Numbered from the stretch's first letter, positions 26,014 to 34,874 are shown. The stretch: DNA of 64,000 bases from an uncultured Synechococcaceae cyanobacterium (GCA_902578445.1 CACHDC010000004.1:1-64000); one strand, 5' to 3'. Numbers and translations are program-made. Notes: generated by a model from the sequence alone, not told the origin.

Positions 26014-27381
26014 TTAGGAGACAAGTGTCTCTGGCTCATTTTCAATTAGGGAAGCCAAGTCTTTTAAGAATGAAGCTCCATCAGCTCCATAGATCACTCT
26101 ATGATCAGCTGTTAGATTTACTTGCATTATTTTTTTAACAGATATTGAACCATCACTATTAGCGACAACAGTTGGTTTCGATGATGCTATGGCTAAAATA
26201 GCACCGGTACCTGGAGGGAGAATTGCGTCAAATCTATCAACTCCAAACATCCCAAGGTTAGATAAAGTGAAGGTTCCCGTTGAGTATTCATCAGGTTCTA
26301 ATTGTTTTGATCTTGATCTTTTTACGAGATCTTTCCATTCCCTAGATAATTCAAATAAATCGGTATTGCATGGTTCTTTTAAAACTGGAGTTATCAGTCC
26401 CCCATCTTCCATTGCAACAGCAACAGCAATATTTATATTTTCTGGATAAGAAATTCCATTTTCTGAAAAACTTGAATTAACTTGCGGATGTTTCTTTAGT
26501 GTCTTTGCAACTGCCTTTACAAGTAAAGCAGTCATTGTAACTCCGTTCTGTTTTACCTTTTTATAGAAATTATCTAATTTATCTGTATTGATAGAGTAAC
26601 CCACCCTAAAACATGGAACTTCTAAACTAGATTCCATATTTTTATTTACCGCTTTTTGAAGAGTATTAAATTGAACTGTTTCTCCAGGATTACCAAAACT
26701 ATTTCCTGAAGTTTCTGGTTTACTTTCAACTCCCAAATTTGCACCAGGGATACTTGCAGGAGAACCACCTTCTCCTATCCATGGTATAGAAACAGGTTGG
26801 CCATTAGCTTTTAAAATATCATCAGCTTGAATCCTTCCGTGAGGGCCAGATCCATGAACCTTTGCTAAATCAACACCCATTTGTGAGGCTAGTTTTTTAG
26901 CTCTTGGGGATGCAATTATTCTCGAAGAAACATTACTTGTTGCGGCATTAATTTGATCGACTTTAAAAGATGGGACAGGCTTTTCTCTCTTTAAGACGAC
27001 TTCTTCAGCTTCTTTCTTGATATCTTCAGTCTGGACTACTGGTTTTTCTTCAGTTTTATTGCTTACCAACTCAAGTTGGTCTGAAGTTGAGACCTCGGGT
27101 TGATTTCCTTTATTTTGTTCTTGAACAGAAGCTATCTCATCCTCATTTTCTACAATAAGACCGATAGTCTCTCCTACTGGTGCAGTGCTGCCAGCAGGCA
27201 TTAAAACAGCTGCAAGATATCCATCTTGAAAAGATTCAACATCCATATCTGCCTTGTCAGATTCAACAACCAAGACAGATTCACCTCTTTCAACTTTATC
27301 TCCTGGATTTTTCAACCATTCCACAATCTTGCCCTCCGTCATAGTAGAACTCAAGGCAGGCATGAATATTTCGTGACTCAT
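26014..27381 (-). CDS. pdhC: Dihydrolipoamide acetyltransferase (pyruvate dehydrogenase E2); start codon lies at an element junction
   Basis: MSHEIFMPALSSTMTEGKIVEWLKNPGDKVERGESVLVVESDKADMDVESF lipoyl domain; C-terminal catalytic TADHRVIYGADGA. Confidence 0.96.
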   Translation of the reverse strand: MSHEIFMPALSSTMTEGKIVEWLKNPGDKVERGESVLVVESDKADMDVESFQDGYLAAVLMPAGSTAPVGETIGLIVENEDEIASVQEQNKGNQPEVSTSDQLELVSNKTEEKPVVQTEDIKKEAEEVVLKREKPVPSFKVDQINAATSNVSSRIIASPRAKKLASQMGVDLAKVHGSGPHGRIQADDILKANGQPVSIPWIGEGGSPASIPGANLGVESKPETSGNSFGNPGETVQFNTLQKAVNKNMESSLEVPCFRVGYSINTDKLDNFYKKVKQNGVTMTALLVKAVAKTLKKHPQVNSSFSENGISYPENINIAVAVAMEDGGLITPVLKEPCNTDLFELSREWKDLVKRSRSKQLEPDEYSTGTFTLSNLGMFGVDRFDAILPPGTGAILAIASSKPTVVANSDGSISVKKIMQVNLTADHRVIYGADGASFLKDLASLIENEPETLVS

Positions 27382-27383
27382 AA
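27367..27383 (+). repeat. att-like junction repeat, left
   Basis: TATTTCGTGACTCATAA; reverse complement encodes current pdhC start ATG AGT CAC GAA ATA. Confidence 0.8.
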
Positions 27384-27415
27384 TGGTTTAGTGATTGCAG
27401 TCGTTTTGATGGTGG

Positions 27416-27435
27416 TGTCTAACCAACTGTCTAAC
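27416..27435 (+). repeat. Putative integrase arm-type sites, left end
   Basis: TGTCTAAC at 27416-27423 and 27428-27435. Confidence 0.6.
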
Positions 27436-27706
27436 TTTTTTCATAGTCAGATGATGAAATTATCCTTCCAGATTCACAAATTTCATCAGTTAGATCACAA
27501 TCATCGTGATATACATATTCTACAAAAAAATAGATCACAAAGGAATATATCAAATGTTAAATGTTAAACAAGCAATAGTAGATGAGATTCAATACTTAAA
27601 AGTTTGAACTGGATGATAACGAAGAAGCCTACCGATCAAAGAAAGATACTATTCCACCAGCACTACTATTACTTGATTAACTGATCATTATTTAACAACA
27701 TATAAC

Positions 27707-27720
27707 TGGTTACGTAACCA
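27707..27720. promoter_or_regulatory. Palindromic operator candidate upstream of serine recombinase
   Basis: TGGTTACGTAACCA perfect 14-bp palindrome preceded by TATAAC; GTTACGTAAC core repeated at 32240. Confidence 0.6.
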
Positions 27721-27792
27721 CATTGCCATTTTTGGTATAACTCTTTAACGTAAATACTAGATTCTCAAACTAAACGCACTATTAACAATCTG

Positions 27793-28449
27793 ATGACTAC
27801 TAAATTTGTTATTTACAGACGAATCTCAGGAGGCACTAATCAAATCAAATCAGGATTAGGATTAGAAGCACAGATGACTGAGATAAATTGTTATCTACAA
27901 GGCATAGATGATCACGTTATAGTTGATCAATTTACAGAGATTGCATCTGGTAAAGATCATCAAAACAGACCCATATTGCAGTCTGCGATTGACAAGTCGA
28001 TACAAACTAATTCGATATTGTTGGTAAGTAGGATATGTAGACTTAGCAGAGACTTAGAGTTCACCGCCTCTTTAATGAAGTCAAATAAAGTTAAATTCAG
28101 AATTGCAACTATGCCTACTGCTGATAACTTTATAATCGCAATTTACGCAGCAATGGTTCAAAAAGATCGTGAGATGATATCAATTAGAACCAAAAATGCA
28201 TTAAGAGAGGCAAAGAAAAAAGGAAAAAAATTAGGAATTATGGGTAAAGAAAATATTAAACAGGCAAACCTTAAAAAGATTCAACAGGCAGATGAGTTTG
28301 CAGACAAAGTGAAAAAAGTAGTGATACCAATGAGAGAGGAGGGTAAAACATATCTACAAATCGCAAACATTTTATGTAACGTGAATTTTTTAACTCCAAG
28401 AGGCTGTAAGTTCACACCATCATCAGTTCAAAGATATTGTGTGAGGTAA
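27793..28449 (+). CDS. Serine recombinase, resolvase/invertase family
   Basis: VIYRRIS...GLGLEAQ, ASGKDHQNRPILQSAI, LLVSRICRLSRDLEF, AAMVQKDREMISIRTKNALREAKKKGKKLG, C-terminal HTH. Confidence 0.88.
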   Translation: MTTKFVIYRRISGGTNQIKSGLGLEAQMTEINCYLQGIDDHVIVDQFTEIASGKDHQNRPILQSAIDKSIQTNSILLVSRICRLSRDLEFTASLMKSNKVKFRIATMPTADNFIIAIYAAMVQKDREMISIRTKNALREAKKKGKKLGIMGKENIKQANLKKIQQADEFADKVKKVVIPMREEGKTYLQIANILCNVNFLTPRGCKFTPSSVQRYCVR

Positions 28450-28456
28450 TAATTAG

Positions 28457-28600
28457 ATGAAAGATTTTTTAATTGACATTCTGAAGATTTGGATCGGAGT
28501 TAACATTTATAAAAACTCGATGAGAGAACCAAAGTCTAAAGTCGGTAGAGTTTCAAATATGAAACAACAAGAAATAATCAATAATGGTGGTAAATAAATA
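28457..28600 (+). CDS. Tiny ORF (46 aa)
   Basis: Read manually: MKDFLIDILKIWIGVNIYKNSMREPKSKVGRVSNMKQQEIINNGGK, immediately after the recombinase. Confidence 0.4.
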
Positions 28601-28630
28601 AGCATAGGTGTGTAGAAACACCTGTTGGTG

Positions 28631-28674
28631 AAACACGTGATGGATTTACTGATTTCCTATCACGTGTTTTTTTA
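28631..28674 (+). terminator. Rho-independent terminator
   Basis: AAACACGTGAT / ATCACGTGTTT 11-bp stem followed by T-run. Confidence 0.85.
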
Positions 28675-28936
28675 TTGCTGGTTGATTGTTAGATAGTGAT
28701 GATACTTTTGTTACTAAATGTTAACAACGTGATCAAATTTGTAGAACAAACTTATAAATAACTCTGCCAGTTTTGATAAGGGATAAGAGACTATTAAGTG
28801 ATTATTTGAGTAACTTAAGGGCGAAAAGTTAATTTAAATATCATTTAAAACCAGTAGGCGTAATGTTCTTAGACTGTTAGTGCTGGCAAAAGTATAAATA
28901 GAGTTAACACACATTTACTACAATTATTAGAACAAA

Positions 28937-29089
28937 ATGAGATTTAAAGATGCAGTTTCATACAACAAGTATGAGGCAGAGACAGGTAAGAGAGTAATTA
29001 AAGATTTGATGGTTCATTTCAAATGTAACAAGAGTGATGTATATAAAAAATCAACAAAACACTTACACGAACTGGTTTTTACAAAATGA
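28937..29089 (+). CDS. Tiny ORF of element (50 aa)
   Basis: MRFKDAVSYNKYEAETGKRVIKDLMVHFKCNKSDVYKKSTKHLHELVFTK; ATGA overlap with next ORF. Confidence 0.55.
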   Translation: MRFKDAVSYNKYEAETGKRVIKDLMVHFKCNKSDVYKKSTKHLHELVFTK

Positions 29090-29214
29090 AGAATATTCAA
29101 ATATCTGACTTTGGTTATGAATCTGGAAAAGAGAAAGTTCGTGTTCAGATGAGGAAGCAAAACCCGACTGATCGTGATTTAAAAGAATTGATCGAAAAAT
29201 TTCTAAGAGAGTAA
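29086..29214 (+). CDS. Tiny ORF of element (42 aa)
   Basis: MKNIQISDFGYESGKEKVRVQMRKQNPTDRDLKELIEKFLRE; translationally coupled start. Confidence 0.5.
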   Translation: MKNIQISDFGYESGKEKVRVQMRKQNPTDRDLKELIEKFLRE

Positions 29215-29216
29215 CA

Positions 29217-29489
29217 ATGAAGAAGCTACGACAACCATTATCAGAATCAGTAAATAACAAGATCAATATGGTTAGAAATGTATTCAAGAAAAAACGATTT
29301 GATGAGTTACAGGATGAGATGTTTCATATACGTGTTCAAGACTCTCTGAGAGGTATCTCAGAGGGTTCTGAAGACGTTCAATTACTTATTGAGAGTAAAA
29401 GGATGTCTGACTATGTAAACACATTAAATTGGATGACAAAAAATGGAAATCAGACGAGACAACCTAAGAAGATGGAAAATCGAAATTGA
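29217..29489 (+). CDS. Hypothetical element protein (90 aa)
   Basis: ORF track; starts 2 bp after preceding stop. Confidence 0.55.
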   Translation: MKKLRQPLSESVNNKINMVRNVFKKKRFDELQDEMFHIRVQDSLRGISEGSEDVQLLIESKRMSDYVNTLNWMTKNGNQTRQPKKMENRN

Positions 29490-29646
29490 GATGGATGGAT
29501 TAAGTGAACCTGATGTAGCAGAAGTGTATGAATCAGTCAGGAAACATTTTCACTTAAAACGTGAAACTTATGGCACACACAGGTTAGATAAGAGATGGAT
29601 AACAGTTAAAGATGTATCAAACTCAGTCGAAAGATTTATGAGTTAA
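29443..29646 (+). CDS. Hypothetical element protein (67 aa)
   Basis: ORF track; overlaps previous ORF by 47 nt in another frame. Confidence 0.5.
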   Translation: MEIRRDNLRRWKIEIEMDGLSEPDVAEVYESVRKHFHLKRETYGTHRLDKRWITVKDVSNSVERFMS

Positions 29647-29667
29647 TTAACAATCAACAGGCCAGGA

Positions 29668-29817
29668 ATGATCAGAGATAAGAATTATTGGAAGCGGTTA
29701 AGTTACTTCAAACAGGCAGTTGATAGTTACTCAAGACGAACTAATCAATCATTGAATCGATATCAAGTCGCAGCACTGATATCAATCCTGATGGATAATT
29801 CATATCGAAAATCATAA
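29668..29817 (+). CDS. Tiny ORF of element (49 aa)
   Basis: Read manually: MIRDKNYWKRLSYFKQAVDSYSRRTNQSLNRYQVAALISILMDNSYRKS, followed by terminator. Confidence 0.45.
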   Translation: MIRDKNYWKRLSYFKQAVDSYSRRTNQSLNRYQVAALISILMDNSYRKS

Positions 29818-29830
29818 ACAATAAACCAAG

Positions 29831-29855
29831 AGGCAACAGTCATACGTTGCCTTTT
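29831..29855 (+). terminator. Terminator of small-ORF operon
   Basis: AGGCAACagtcatacGTTGCCTTTT. Confidence 0.7.
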
Positions 29856-29903
29856 CGACTATTTGGGATACAACTAATATTCAACCAGTGCTGGGATAGT
29901 ATT

Positions 29904-30248
29904 ATGAATCCAATCAAATTAAGTCTGTTAGTTGTTACTTTTGTGGCATCAGTTGTTGTTGATGTAAAGGCGATTGATAAAAACTCTGATGATGAGTTCT
30001 GGAATGAGATTAAACAAGTTAGGGAAAATGTAACTGGCAGAGTCGATATCGAGTTCAACAAGAAGATTGACTACTGTCGATGGTGGGGTGAATCTGTAGT
30101 CAAATCCAAGAAAGAAGAATGGAATCTATCTAACGTTGTGTCGTATTCGAGTAAGTGTATGAAACATCTGACTGATCTAACTAACAAAACTCTGAAAGAT
30201 GTTACTGGCACTGATCATCATAATTCTCACGTTTTTAATAATCAGTAA
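29904..30248 (+). CDS. Putative secreted protein with signal peptide
   Basis: MNPIKLSLLVVTFVASVVVDVKA|IDKNSDDEFW... two Cys residues; ATG 29904 preferred over track start 29847, which overlaps a terminator. Confidence 0.6.
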   Translation: MNPIKLSLLVVTFVASVVVDVKAIDKNSDDEFWNEIKQVRENVTGRVDIEFNKKIDYCRWWGESVVKSKKEEWNLSNVVSYSSKCMKHLTDLTNKTLKDVTGTDHHNSHVFNNQ

Positions 30249-30259
30249 GCTAGAAAATA

Positions 30260-30713
30260 AAAAATCGATAGTTGTAATCTATAGGTAAGCAGTTCCCAGT
30301 GATCGATATATTTTTCAAAATCGACTTTTTAAATGAAAATCTATAAAAAAATTTTCTGGGCAAAAATGATGTGAAAAGGTTTTATAAGATTTTCTTATCA
30401 AAATTGAAAGAACGATACGTGAAATCGTTGTGGCAGTAATACATCTTGAGAACACTGATTGTTACTAATTGTATCCAAATTTGAGTCTGAAAATCTCAAT
30501 CAGCATAACTAACTTTGTAGTGGTTATCCTAAATTGTCTTTAGGTTTACTACAACTACTGCTACTAACTTATCAAGTTTGACTTGAAGTTTATACTTTGA
30601 GTAACTCTTGAGGCGGTAACATTGGGAATACTGTATCAGTAAGATACCAACACTAAGTATAATCAAATACACTCAAGGATTGTAGTTGTAGTCTACATAC
30701 TTGAGTCTTTTTA
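30260..30713 (+). ncRNA. Candidate structured non-coding RNA
   Basis: ORF-free interval; stem GAAAATCTATAAAA/TTTTATAAGATTTTC (30335-30348/30380-30394), hairpin 30517-30552, and terminator ACTCAAGGATTGTAG...CTACATACTTGAGT+T-run (30671-30713). Confidence 0.4.
30671..30713 (+). terminator. Rho-independent terminator
   Basis: ACTCAAGGATTGTAGttgtagtCTACATACTTGAGTCTTTTT. Confidence 0.75.
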
Positions 30714-30877
30714 TTGCAACTAATTGTAAACAAATTGTTGCACTATCTAATAATTATGATTACAGTAACCTTTGTGGAGGTTCATAAGGATTTCTTTAGT
30801 AACTTCTTAGAGTTCACTAAGATTACTAAGAATTAACTCAAAGATTAGAAGCTGTGAGTAACTCAAGAGGCGATAGG

Positions 30878-32140
30878 TTATCTGACGTAATTGAAATTAG
30901 AATCTCTTAACTGATCATTCAATAATTCATATTCCAGAGGCACTGGTTGATCGAGGTAGTGTTTGTATTTTCTCATTCCCCAATCTTTTTTCTTGAATAC
31001 TTTTGATTTCCAGTAATCGAATAAGCAGTCAAGATTATTATTGTGATCAACGACAGGCACTGAGTTGTATAAGTTGTCATCCCAGTTCTCACAACCATAT
31101 GTTCCAACATATACTCTCTTTTTTTCAGTTCGATTCATAAGATCATCGATGGTGGTTGAAAATAACTTTCTCAACTTTGATACTGTCTTATCGTGTCGAT
31201 TCTGGAGCAGTGAATATTCAAGGAAGTGAATCAAATTTTTAAAAGTTTTATCTTCTTGTGATGATGAATTTTTAACAAATAGTGATCGACTTATTCCTCT
31301 TCGATCTAACCATTCCAGCAGTTGTTCTTTCTGTGGATTCTTCATTCTGATGGGGTGTTTCGACTCTGTAACACCGATGAACTTTATAAAACGATCTAAC
31401 TGATCATATTGACTAGAACTCTTTGTAGAACCGAATAGAGACATCGTGTAGAACAGAACAACATTCGACTTATACATCTTGTTGAAGAAATCTCTCAACT
31501 CATTTGATTGACTGATCAATGTTAATAATTTTCCACCTCTAAATTTTGAACCGAAAGGCTGTGTAGGCACTATGATTTTTGAATTTAGAATATGAGAATT
31601 TATAAAATTTGGTTCTAGTCGATCAATTCCCAAATACTGTTGTAGAGGTTTGTTCGACAGCACACCAGAATCAAGTCGTATGAATCCAAGTATGAATTCA
31701 TCGTATGGTGTTTGTTTCTCTTGAATAAACTGAATTGATCTATGTTTGTCAGTCAAAGTGACAATAAAATCAACACATCTGAATCCACCAAAGTTGATAT
31801 GTGATGAAGTTAAATCTAAAAATTTAATGTAATCAGGTTGTTTTCTTCTTCCACTTCCCTGTTTCGGATTTCCAACAAAATAAACATTGACTCCGAAGTC
31901 ACCACCATTGATCTCACCTTTCTGGGCAAATGGATAAGCATAACCATTCCATAGATTTTTCTCTTTCAAATCAACGATCTTTTGTTTCCTCATCAAATCT
32001 ATTGAAGAGGCGGTTGTTCCGAAGTATCCGATGAAAAAGTTAACAGCAAAGATCGTATCGGGAACATCTAAAAATCTAGAGTATGTTCTAAATTCTTCAC
32101 CATCATTTTTTTTATTGAGATAATTCGGATTTAGAACCAC
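30878..32140 (-). CDS. DUF4338/DruA-like protein (putative)
   Basis: 420 aa; RGGKLLTLISQSNELRDFFNKMYKSNVVLFYTMSLFGSTKSSSQYDQLDRFIKFIG resembles the GGKLL...TTSLYG.SSQYNRL block I associate with DUF4338; family call from memory only. Confidence 0.45.
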   Translation of the reverse strand: MVLNPNYLNKKNDGEEFRTYSRFLDVPDTIFAVNFFIGYFGTTASSIDLMRKQKIVDLKEKNLWNGYAYPFAQKGEINGGDFGVNVYFVGNPKQGSGRRKQPDYIKFLDLTSSHINFGGFRCVDFIVTLTDKHRSIQFIQEKQTPYDEFILGFIRLDSGVLSNKPLQQYLGIDRLEPNFINSHILNSKIIVPTQPFGSKFRGGKLLTLISQSNELRDFFNKMYKSNVVLFYTMSLFGSTKSSSQYDQLDRFIKFIGVTESKHPIRMKNPQKEQLLEWLDRRGISRSLFVKNSSSQEDKTFKNLIHFLEYSLLQNRHDKTVSKLRKLFSTTIDDLMNRTEKKRVYVGTYGCENWDDNLYNSVPVVDHNNNLDCLFDYWKSKVFKKKDWGMRKYKHYLDQPVPLEYELLNDQLRDSNFNYVR

Positions 32141-32239
32141 TAATTAACATTTTTTGAATCTAATTTATATTATTATTTTTAAAAAATTAGTGTAGATAAA
32201 TTATTATTATTTGTTAATCTATTACCAGAACTATAACTC

Positions 32240-32249
32240 GTTACGTAAC
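32240..32249. promoter_or_regulatory. Palindromic operator candidate upstream of RHH-like regulator
   Basis: GTTACGTAAC, preceded by TATAACT as at 27701-27719. Confidence 0.6.
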
Positions 32250-32250
32250 A

Positions 32251-32661
32251 GTGAAACGACCGAATGAATTACAAGTATCTTTTTACATAGATTCCAAAGA
32301 AAGACAGCAGTTCCAAGAACTTTGTAAGACATCAGGAGTCAGTGTTAGTAATACTTTACGAATGTGGATTCAAACAGCACTTCAAACACAGTCACTCAAT
32401 GTTGAAACACCACCTGATGGAAAAACAGTTACTAACACTGTTGTGGCTACAACATCATCTGAAACTAATCATCAACTAGCAGTGATAAAGAAGAGGCTAG
32501 ACAAGGTTGAACGTATATTTAATTTCATCAATGAAACAGAATTAGAGTTCATCAAGAATGAAGTCATAGGCGAAGAGTTCGGAACAATCAGAAACAGAGT
32601 TGGAGTCGTTGAGAGTCAACTACAACAAATGGGAGGTAGTATCAGTTGGAAAGAAGATTAG
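32251..32661 (+). CDS. Ribbon-helix-helix (CopG/Arc-like) DNA-binding protein with coiled coil
   Basis: LQVSFYIDSKERQQFQELCKTSGVSVSNTLRMWIQTAL then heptad-like C-terminus; GTG start. Confidence 0.65.
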   Translation: MKRPNELQVSFYIDSKERQQFQELCKTSGVSVSNTLRMWIQTALQTQSLNVETPPDGKTVTNTVVATTSSETNHQLAVIKKRLDKVERIFNFINETELEFIKNEVIGEEFGTIRNRVGVVESQLQQMGGSISWKED

Positions 32662-32736
32662 AACCACCTTACAGACGATTCTGAGAGGAGTAATTTTATT
32701 AAAATATTGATTTTTTGATGATTTTTGATGATTTTG

Positions 32737-34071
32737 TTAAAAATCCTCAGGCACACTAGTTCCCAACTCATCTATTGAATAACGAGCAGATAAACCATCA
32801 TATGTTTTTTGAATCATCTCCATTGATGTTCCTACGTTCTTTGCTACTTTGTTAACAGGAATTCCCTGTAAAAGTCTGTTTGAAATGTGAGTCGATCTAA
32901 GAGAGTAGAGAGTATATTTTCTATCAAACTTACAAGCTGTGACGATCTCACGATACCAATCTCGAATATGTTCACTATGGTAAATTTTTCGATCTTTTAA
33001 AAATGGATTCATTAACACCAGATCATCTTTATCACGAGGCGGTAGTAGTTGAATTGGTTCTTTAACTTTTTTCCGATACGTATCAATAATTGTTTTGTCA
33101 CCAGCACTCAAACGTCTGTTGATATCTTCGATCTGTCGATTTCTTAATTTGATTCCTTTATCAAGATGTGATTTTAATTTTAAAAAAGTATTTGAGTTAA
33201 TTGAACATTCTCTTCTTCCAGTTTTTGTATTCTCATCAATTTGAATTAAACAGGCAGTTTTATCATTTTTTGAAATAATCTCACAGTCACCAAATCTAAT
33301 TTTTCTTGATTCGTGGGGGCGGAATCCACCTTGATACATAAATCTGATGTAGTTAATAAACCATCTTCTTTTCCACGTTTCATACTCATCATCCCAACCT
33401 TGATCAAATTTATATAATTCATCATTAAATCTCTTCCAATCATTAGGTAAGTAAGCAGGATTAGATTCAACATTATATTTTTTTAAATCTTTAATTCTTT
33501 CAATTCTTGGTTGATTTCGAGGCAGTAAGAATTCTTTCTCCACCATCCATTTGAAAATCTCATTGAGTTGACTGATATCTTTGTTGATCGTGTTATGTGA
33601 TAAACCTTTTGTTTCTGTTTTCCATCTTCCTCTTGTTCTTCTATCTAACTGGAAACCAGCATAACCATCAAAAGTATCTTTTCTAATCTCAGTCATATTC
33701 TTGATATTTTTAAATTTAAGATATGGGATGAATCGTAAATCTATTCTCTGTTGATAAATCTTCTGAGTATTTGGTTTGATCAATCCTCGATTGAGTTTCT
33801 TATTTTTTTCCAGCATATAATTTTCAAACACACGTTGAATAGTTAATGTCGATTTACCTGATGTAGGAGGCGAAGATTGAATTTTTACATAAACATCTAA
33901 AGCAATACTGTGGGCAGTATTCATATCAGTTGTGTTCAATGAATGTTGTGTATATCTTTTTCCATCTCTTTTGACTCTTAAATACAAATATTTTCGATCT
34001 TTGTATTTACATATGACAGCACGATCGTTCAAAGTTGGTTCTGAAAAATCGAGTGTTGGTGACATAATCAA
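32737..34071 (-). CDS. Tyrosine recombinase / phage-type integrase
   Basis: Catalytic-region motifs GGFRPHESRKIRFGD, YTLYSLRSTHISNRLLQGIPVNKVAKNVGTSMEMIQKTYDGL. Confidence 0.9.
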   Translation of the reverse strand: MIMSPTLDFSEPTLNDRAVICKYKDRKYLYLRVKRDGKRYTQHSLNTTDMNTAHSIALDVYVKIQSSPPTSGKSTLTIQRVFENYMLEKNKKLNRGLIKPNTQKIYQQRIDLRFIPYLKFKNIKNMTEIRKDTFDGYAGFQLDRRTRGRWKTETKGLSHNTINKDISQLNEIFKWMVEKEFLLPRNQPRIERIKDLKKYNVESNPAYLPNDWKRFNDELYKFDQGWDDEYETWKRRWFINYIRFMYQGGFRPHESRKIRFGDCEIISKNDKTACLIQIDENTKTGRRECSINSNTFLKLKSHLDKGIKLRNRQIEDINRRLSAGDKTIIDTYRKKVKEPIQLLPPRDKDDLVLMNPFLKDRKIYHSEHIRDWYREIVTACKFDRKYTLYSLRSTHISNRLLQGIPVNKVAKNVGTSMEMIQKTYDGLSARYSIDELGTSVPEDF

Positions 34072-34074
34072 AAA

Positions 34075-34173
34075 TGTCTACGACTCTGTCTAACTCTTAG
34101 ATCAAGATCGTAGATATAAACTAAATTTGATTACATTATAATTAACTGTCTAACTGGTGTCTACCTGTCTAAC
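34075..34173 (+). repeat. Putative integrase arm-type sites, right end
   Basis: TGTCTAAC at 34087, 34147, 34166; variants TGTCTACG at 34075 and TGTCTACC at 34158. Confidence 0.6.
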
Positions 34174-34197
34174 CCACTAGTATCACTGAATCCTGAC

Positions 34198-34214
34198 TAT
34201 TTCGTGAGACATAA
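34198..34214 (+). repeat. att-like junction repeat, right, with displaced pdhC start
   Basis: TATTTCGTGAGACATAA; reverse complement gives ATG TCT CAC GAA ATA GTC ... then TGA after 9 codons. Confidence 0.8.
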
Positions 34215-34430
34215 GAAAATTGTTATTGCATAAGTTTCAAGGGATTTCTACCAAACTTCCTAAAGTTTTTATGATTAAGAACCCTTTAAACTCTTGTTTT
34301 AATTATACGAAATCATGTTCACAGTGGGAACTCTTAAAACTTAAGAAAGTAATAATTTAGATCGATTAGAATTTAAAACTTTTCGAAATTAAGATTTACT
34401 TATATTTATCAAAAATACTAAATCTTCTTT

Positions 34431-34874
34431 TTAATTATTATCTATAGATTGAATAACTCCATCTTTAACTGTAATCGAGACTTGCATTTTTTCAATAAGA
34501 TTGTCTCCCACAGTGACATCACAGAAACTATCCACTTGCCCTTGATCAACAATTTCGTCCATTTTTAATTCGCGAACTTGACTCTGTTGTTGAAGTAGAT
34601 TTCTTTTTTGTTCTTCAATTTCATTTCGTTTTGCTGCGACTTGTTGTTGCACCTGACTAACCTGTTCTTGAACCCTTGGATCAAGAGGATTAACCGATTG
34701 GGATCTAATATTATTTACTATTTGCTGACCCTCCTGCTCCAGTTGCGATAATTGCTGATCAATGTTTGAAATTGCTTTACTTAATTCTTTTTCAGCATCT
34801 TCCTTCCAAGTTGGTGTAACTACAGCTTTAATAGCTATTGAGCGCTTTATAGATATTGAGTTTTTTGTTTCCAT
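34431..34874 (-). CDS. YlqD-family protein
   Basis: SISIKRSIAIKAVVTPTWKEDAEKEL... long coiled coil ...VGDNLIEKMQVSITVKDGVIQSI. Confidence 0.7.
   Translation of the reverse strand: METKNSISIKRSIAIKAVVTPTWKEDAEKELSKAISNIDQQLSQLEQEGQQIVNNIRSQSVNPLDPRVQEQVSQVQQQVAAKRNEIEEQKRNLLQQQSQVRELKMDEIVDQGQVDSFCDVTVGDNLIEKMQVSITVKDGVIQSIDNN

Follow-up and report, generated by a model that had tools for sequence, protein, structure and literature searches.

Integration at the 5′ end of a protein-coding gene, with the start of that gene restored, has precedents in the dusA islands (PMC4482086, PMC8409611) and in SXT at prfC (PMC8409611). For IMEVchUSA3, which resides at dusA, the supply of a promoter to the 5′ target has been shown (PMC8409611), and ICEKp1 illustrates that integrase promoter switching occurs (PMC13023037). 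Among Prochlorococcus, integrative elements termed tycheposons are reportedly tRNA-linked (Hackl et al. 2023).

Here we analyze a 64-kb stretch of DNA (64,000 nucleotides, hereafter the window) from a Prochlorococcus genome (G000), in which an element measuring 6,831 bp from core to core lies between pdhC and a ylqD-like gene. The hallmark of the dusA and prfC events is present here: the element lies within the first codons, and its own sequence restores the reading frame. An earlier inspection of the window, called here the sequence-only reading, had considered a protein-coding 5′ target notable in comparison with the tRNA-linked tycheposons. That assessment holds, but the type of event has the dusA and prfC precedents. 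A site-specific integrative element with a pdhC-tied tyrosine recombinase is very likely the best explanation of the locus.

Results

The junction copies, TATTTCGTGACTCATAA from position 27367 and TATTTCGTGAGACATAA from 34198, are both present where the sequence-only reading had placed them, and the 64-kb window contains no copy of the 9-mer TATTTCGTG/CACGAAATA beyond these two. A pattern scan and a ylqD search were applied to 266 same-genus genomes. Pairing the coordinates from the two yielded at least about 110 empty sites. In these element-free genomes, ylqD and pdhC are separated by 210–235 bp containing a single site copy, in agreement with the predicted spacing of about 0.2 kb. Because about 110 same-genus genomes have this close spacing and one site copy, the repeat-flanked arrangement is not due to chance, and the 6.8-kb insertion at the pdhC start is real. 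When the window flanks are joined at the core and compared with L020 (genome G003, element-free), the alignment contains 796 identities, 16 mismatches, and 3 gap positions; pdhC orthologues within the genus are up to 99% identical. At the empty sites, pdhC starts with ATGTCTCACGAAATATT (ATGTCT), and the leader there matches the right flank of the window (34214–34430), as had also been predicted. Two observations would have refuted the sequence-only reading: AGT and the 27382–27440 sequence upstream of pdhC without an element, and a right flank that is not contiguous with pdhC in relatives. The former was not met in the empty sites examined, and contiguity was seen. Six same-genus sites are occupied, by insertions of 6.8 kb (G000), 7.6 kb (G117, AG-355-P16), 9.35 kb (G249, AG-349-G15), 1.8 kb (G224), 1.5 kb (G017), and 1.1 kb (G052). 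The exact element described here has one carrier only among the sampled same-genus genomes.

Comparison of the occupied sites places the crossover within 7 bp, TCACGAA, which span codons 2–4 of pdhC. The gene beside the element begins ATG AGT CAC GAA ATA TTC, and the right copy reads ATG TCT CAC GAA ATA GTC AGG ATT CAG TGA, nine codons followed by a stop. Departures from the native sequence precede the core in left copies (AGT in G000 and G117) and follow it in right copies (GTATC in G117 and G249, GATTA in G017, ATAGTC in G000). Because the displaced copy diverges directly after CACGAA in G117, G249, and G017, the core is TCACGAA rather than CACGAAATA. The latter had been proposed as the crossover, a claim that held only in part, the shared core being shorter. 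An overlap of 7 bp is typical of tyrosine recombinases. The second codon AGT occurs at occupied sites only (G000 and G117) and at none of the empty sites examined. Replacement of the start is thereby shown: the earlier claim that the element supplies a new ATG and serine codon (AGT for TCT) held by comparison with empty sites, as did the claim of a displaced MSHEI copy that stops after nine codons. The displaced ORF has an early stop in 6/6 Prochlorococcus cases. This feature was dropped as evidence, because composition alone predicts a stop in the first 8 codons in about half of cases.

The displaced copy is TTGGCNACCCACGACATY in Synechococcus-type hosts, where the element-adjacent pdhC begins with ATG (G527, G449). 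Loci of other genera with a short ylqD–pdhC gap (74–82 bp, plus one of 122 bp at which the match was truncated) all have a TTG start (11/11), and those with a longer gap or without a nearby ylqD have an ATG start in 11 of 16 cases. The element can exchange a native TTG start for ATG in Synechococcus-type hosts. This swap is not universal, because the element in G347 supplies a TTG start.

The integrase has the R-K-(H/Y)xxR-H-Y set of tyrosine recombinases: R251, K283, R392, H395, and Y424 do not vary among 11 homologues. Residue 389 is Y in all three same-genus integrases and variable in the others. The three same-genus elements are independent, with integrases 59–62% identical to the G000 one and mostly different cargo. 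A profile of these three integrases, with close homologues defined by E at or below 2e-36, identifies 16 genomes of other picocyanobacterial genera, and the homologue lies in the ylqD–pdhC interval in all 16, as anticipated by the suggestion that relatives be sought next to pdhC elsewhere. In 15 of the 16, no more than about 0.7 kb separates it from the ylqD-like gene; in G542, the integrase is at the edge of its contig, and pdhC follows 5.7 kb downstream on that contig. Nine of the 16 genomes have pdhC on the same contig, at an interval of about 4.6–22 kb. The remaining homologues are at contig ends, or their pdhC is on a separate contig or absent from the draft assembly. The homologues are broken in G489 and G552 and contain a single stop in G579. 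As a control, 21 genomes were used in which the best match is a distant integrase (E 1e-8 to 1e-17), 16 of which have a ylqD match. The distant integrase is near ylqD in 0/16, the nearest being about 50 kb away. The chance probability of 16/16 versus 0/16 is about 2e-9 if genomes are treated as independent, which they are not fully. These data show site specificity: the integrase lineage, found in eight picocyanobacterial genera, is tied to the pdhC start. Its tree groups broadly by host genus.

A phage or plasmid origin is unsupported: the integrase has no match in 50,697 phage records or in IMG/VR (pattern search), and plasmids contain one distant match (26.5% identity). No credible solved relative was found with the single sequence or the profile, and the AlphaFold model (mean pLDDT 41.7) is too poor for use. 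In G544 (L177), the contig with the pdhC-type integrase also carries a second, distantly related integrase about 4–6 kb away, and pdhC is found on a different contig; a tandem or rearranged island is possible.

Arm-type repeats (GTTRGACA; GTTAGACA/GTAGACA here) keep fixed distances from the core. In G000, the pdhC-side copies are at −59 and −47, and the integrase-side copies span about +34 to +126; the integrase-side arms of G117 and G249 are at +41, +52, and +112. All but one repeat copy in the three integrase-bearing Prochlorococcus elements lie within 130 bp of an end. The left-end pair occurs at −54 and −42 from the codon anchor in 12/12 left ends from six genera, with an exact pattern match at both positions in eight and one-base variants in G499, G527, G539, and G542. 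In Synechococcus-type hosts, the arm sequence is GTTGGACA or GTTGGAAC. This architecture is shown; the assignment of the repeats as integrase arm sites is inferred from sequence.

Table 1. Positions of features at the G000 pdhC locus, numbered from the first nucleotide of the window
Feature	Position	Strand	Remarks
pdhC (dihydrolipoamide acetyltransferase, E2), target, intact	26014..27381	-	ORF 455 aa; element supplies ATG AGT
pdhC-side crossover core TTCGTGA (TCACGAA in pdhC sense)	27370..27376		junction comparison, six occupied sites
Element-supplied pdhC start codon	27379..27381	-	ATGAGT vs native ATGTCT of empty sites
pdhC-side arm-type repeat pair TGTCTAAC	27416..27435 (27416-27423, 27428-27435)		12-bp period
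Candidate pdhC promoter region within element (TTTTTTTGTAGAATATG), diverged	27511..27555	-	marginal similarity to G022-type leader
Serine resolvase/invertase-like protein, 218 aa	27793..28449	+	PF00239 4.7e-18, phrog_125 9.2e-28
Small ORFs, unknown function (46, 50, 42, 90, 67, 49, 114 aa)	28457..30248	+	no confident family, those scanned
DruA-like protein, 420 aa	30878..32140	-	PF14236 6.4e-5 (below gathering score), phrog_19197 5.5e-51
Putative ribbon-helix-helix (RHH) regulator, 136 aa	32251..32661	+	weak RelB/RHH and phrog_876 matches
Tyrosine recombinase (integrase), 444 aa, pdhC-specific lineage	32737..34071	-	phrog_1 2.6e-23
Integrase-side arm-type repeats	34087..34173 (34087-34094, 34147-34154, 34158-34164, 34166-34173)
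Displaced native pdhC start, 9-codon ORF MSHEIVRIQ*	34183..34212	-	right junction copy
Integrase-side crossover core TTCGTGA	34201..34207		junction comparison
Native pdhC leader, TATAAT at 34302-34307 (complement)	34213..34430	-	matches empty-site leaders
ylqD-like gene, conserved upstream neighbour of pdhC	34431..34874	-	147 aa; adjoins pdhC in empty genomes

Features of the locus are listed in Table 1. A resolvase-family member is present in nine pdhC-site elements. The G117 element shares the DruA-like cargo (homologue 51% identical) and encodes a homologue of the RHH protein at the same position. No relaxase or conjugation genes were recognized in the eight ORFs scanned, the RHH protein giving weak MobC/NikA-type matches below cut-off. 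The ORFs scanned gave no match to phage structural or packaging genes, no excisionase was identified in the element, and Rfam returned no RNA match. There is no tRNA at the pdhC site; the window's only two tRNAs are at 48.1 kb. For the DruA-like protein, PADLOC gave no match, no relatives were found in IMG/VR, and the AlphaFold model (mean pLDDT 31.6) is too poor for use. Window positions 30250–30880 (about 630 bp) contain no convincing gene; direct repeats of 24 and 37 bp, both imperfect, and an inverted repeat of 18 bp are found there, and this stretch could be a replication or packaging region. The words GAGGCG/CGCCTC are enriched in the element (27370–34207; 6 seen versus 0.2 expected), but neither the G117 nor the G249 element has them among its top words.

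Cargo at other occupied sites includes type I restriction-modification (G347; G326 by homology), T5orf172 proteins (G052, PDC-S57 candidate defence family, 1.8e-78; G224 by homology), EEP nucleases (G224 and G017), a sulfotransferase (G542), and a ParB/methylase protein (G449). G249 encodes a DruA-domain protein (L053 5332–6312) with a PF14236 match of 7.7e-21, stronger than that in G000. The two proteins are unlike each other; DruA-related genes recur as cargo at the site. No transfer or virion genes were recognized among the proteins scanned from pdhC-site elements. Short integrase-less insertions with the same core and arms (L048 1761–2858, L052 2900–4666, L054 924–2437) carry T5orf172 (PDC-S57) or EEP nuclease genes. 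They are remnants, or passengers moved in trans.

The pdhC-proximal gene of the element is transcribed away from pdhC; therefore, a promoter for pdhC has to lie within about 410 bp of element sequence. The candidate promoter in G000 resembles the G022-type pdhC leader only marginally (score 36, shuffle maximum 32). Its comparison with main-clade leaders gave nothing above shuffles, nor did a consensus promoter scan of the G000 left end. Four left ends, those of G117, G249, G017, and G015, show clear similarity in the promoter region, and several left ends score 45–64 against the native main-clade leader L020 (shuffle maxima 29–35). In the occupied site, the native leader precedes the 9-codon ORF and the integrase.

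Empty pdhC leaders were scored with a weight matrix of arm positions trained on integrase-bearing elements only. Short-gap TTG leaders and G022-type leaders score at shuffled background. Most main-clade Prochlorococcus empty leaders score above background, many with p values of 0.003–0.02, although the rows are related and the p values are not independent. The empty leaders L027 and L032 contain two intact GTAGACA copies with a 12-bp period. Main-clade leaders can be aligned with four left ends, those of G117, G249, G017, and G015 (scores 40–64, shuffle maxima 29–35); against the G022-type leader, the same four are not above shuffles. In G015 (L173, complete genome), 51 bp of native leader are identical to L089. 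The native −10 region, the displaced start, and the integrase end are absent, and the element left end is kept at pdhC. We read G015 as a deletion scar that fixed an element leader, the direction of change being inferred. The main-clade empty leader resembles an old element end, and a history of domestication is probable.

Discussion

In the proposed mechanism, the tyrosine recombinase would insert the element at the TCACGAA core in codons 2–4 of pdhC; the recombination chemistry is inferred. The attP would have arm sites on both sides, its non-integrase side being a leader that ends in a start codon. Because this leader and start are on the non-integrase side, integration would be a reciprocal leader exchange, in which pdhC gains the element leader and start while its protein is almost unchanged. 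The native promoter and start would remain ahead of the integrase and read into a short ORF with an early stop. The native pdhC leader would read toward the integrase in the integrated state, and the element leader would read into it in the circle. Excision is likewise inferred, with no circle data, as are transcription of pdhC from the element leader and of the integrase from either leader, with no expression data.

A bolder joint reading is that element ends have been repeatedly domesticated as the pdhC promoter, leader, and start codon, a proposal for which we consider the evidence evenly balanced. Its second part, that the main-clade leader is a fossil end and that many Synechococcus-type TTG starts were replaced by element ATG, could as readily prove wrong as right. 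The same reading adds that integrase expression needs a pdhC-type leader, integrated and circular, via leader exchange, which we neither favor nor discount.

Of the alternatives, the one that survives best, though unlikely, is a decayed or immobile island whose integrase once worked and whose insert is now fixed. In its favor, a single sampled same-genus genome has this exact element, and integrase-less insertions (G052, G224, G017) and broken integrases (G489, G552) occur at the site. Against it, G000 encodes a full-length integrase in which the catalytic residues are conserved, retains intact cores and arm sets at both ends, and has flanks matching those of relatives without the element. It is very unlikely that the GTWAGACA repeats are host pdhC regulatory sites copied by elements rather than integrase arms. 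The repeats do occur in element-free main-clade Prochlorococcus pdhC leaders, but they are found on both sides of the core, the integrase side included, are not detected in short-gap Synechococcus-type or G022-group leaders, and differ in sequence with the elements across host groups (GTTAGACA versus GTTGGACA/GTTGGAAC). A transposase-made short target-site duplication without integrase-mediated recombination, consistent with the shortness of the identical core (7 bp), is all but excluded by the lack of a transposase family match in the main ORFs (apart from a weak phrog_9366 match within the resolvase), by the ordered arm sites flanking the core, and by one integrase lineage that is always at one site in many genera.

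Site-specific integration by a pdhC-tied recombinase, the preferred explanation, means that an integrase lineage hands an essential carbon-metabolism gene a new leader each time, a natural promoter-replacement experiment in very abundant phototrophs. A new sequence-specific integrase with an attB conserved across picocyanobacteria is a possible genetic tool for poorly tractable organisms. Defence genes (type I restriction-modification, PDC-S57) are among the cargo that can be sought at this defined site.

Integration at pdhC is not described in the titles and abstracts of the literature searched, although coverage was partial and a prior description is not excluded. Like the tycheposons (PMC10872708), the element is a Prochlorococcus integrative element with a tyrosine recombinase and cargo; tycheposons are tRNA-linked, a criterion that the pdhC element, with no tRNA at its site, does not meet. 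As for ICEKp1 and ICEclc (PMC13023037), its anatomy suggests that a host promoter serves the integrase in the integrated state and that the opposite end does so in the circle. Those elements are conjugative and target a tRNA, whereas promoter use by the pdhC element is only inferred. SXT at prfC (PMC8409611) is similar in targeting a 5′ end and supplying a new promoter and N-terminus, promoter function being inferred here, but SXT is a large conjugative element and the pdhC element is 6.8 kb with no recognized transfer genes. In the dusA islands (PMC4482086; IMEVchUSA3, PMC8409611), too, a dedicated integrase family uses the 5′ end of a single conserved protein-coding gene, and the varied cargo includes restriction-modification. 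The pdhC element does not belong to the dusA integrase family by its target, which is the pdhC start in all cases. It differs further in that pdhC belongs to central carbon metabolism, the hosts are picocyanobacteria, the first few codons alone are replaced, no conjugative or phage genes are recognized, and there is evidence of old ends turned host leader. The integrase lineage and the target are new, and the kind of event is already known.
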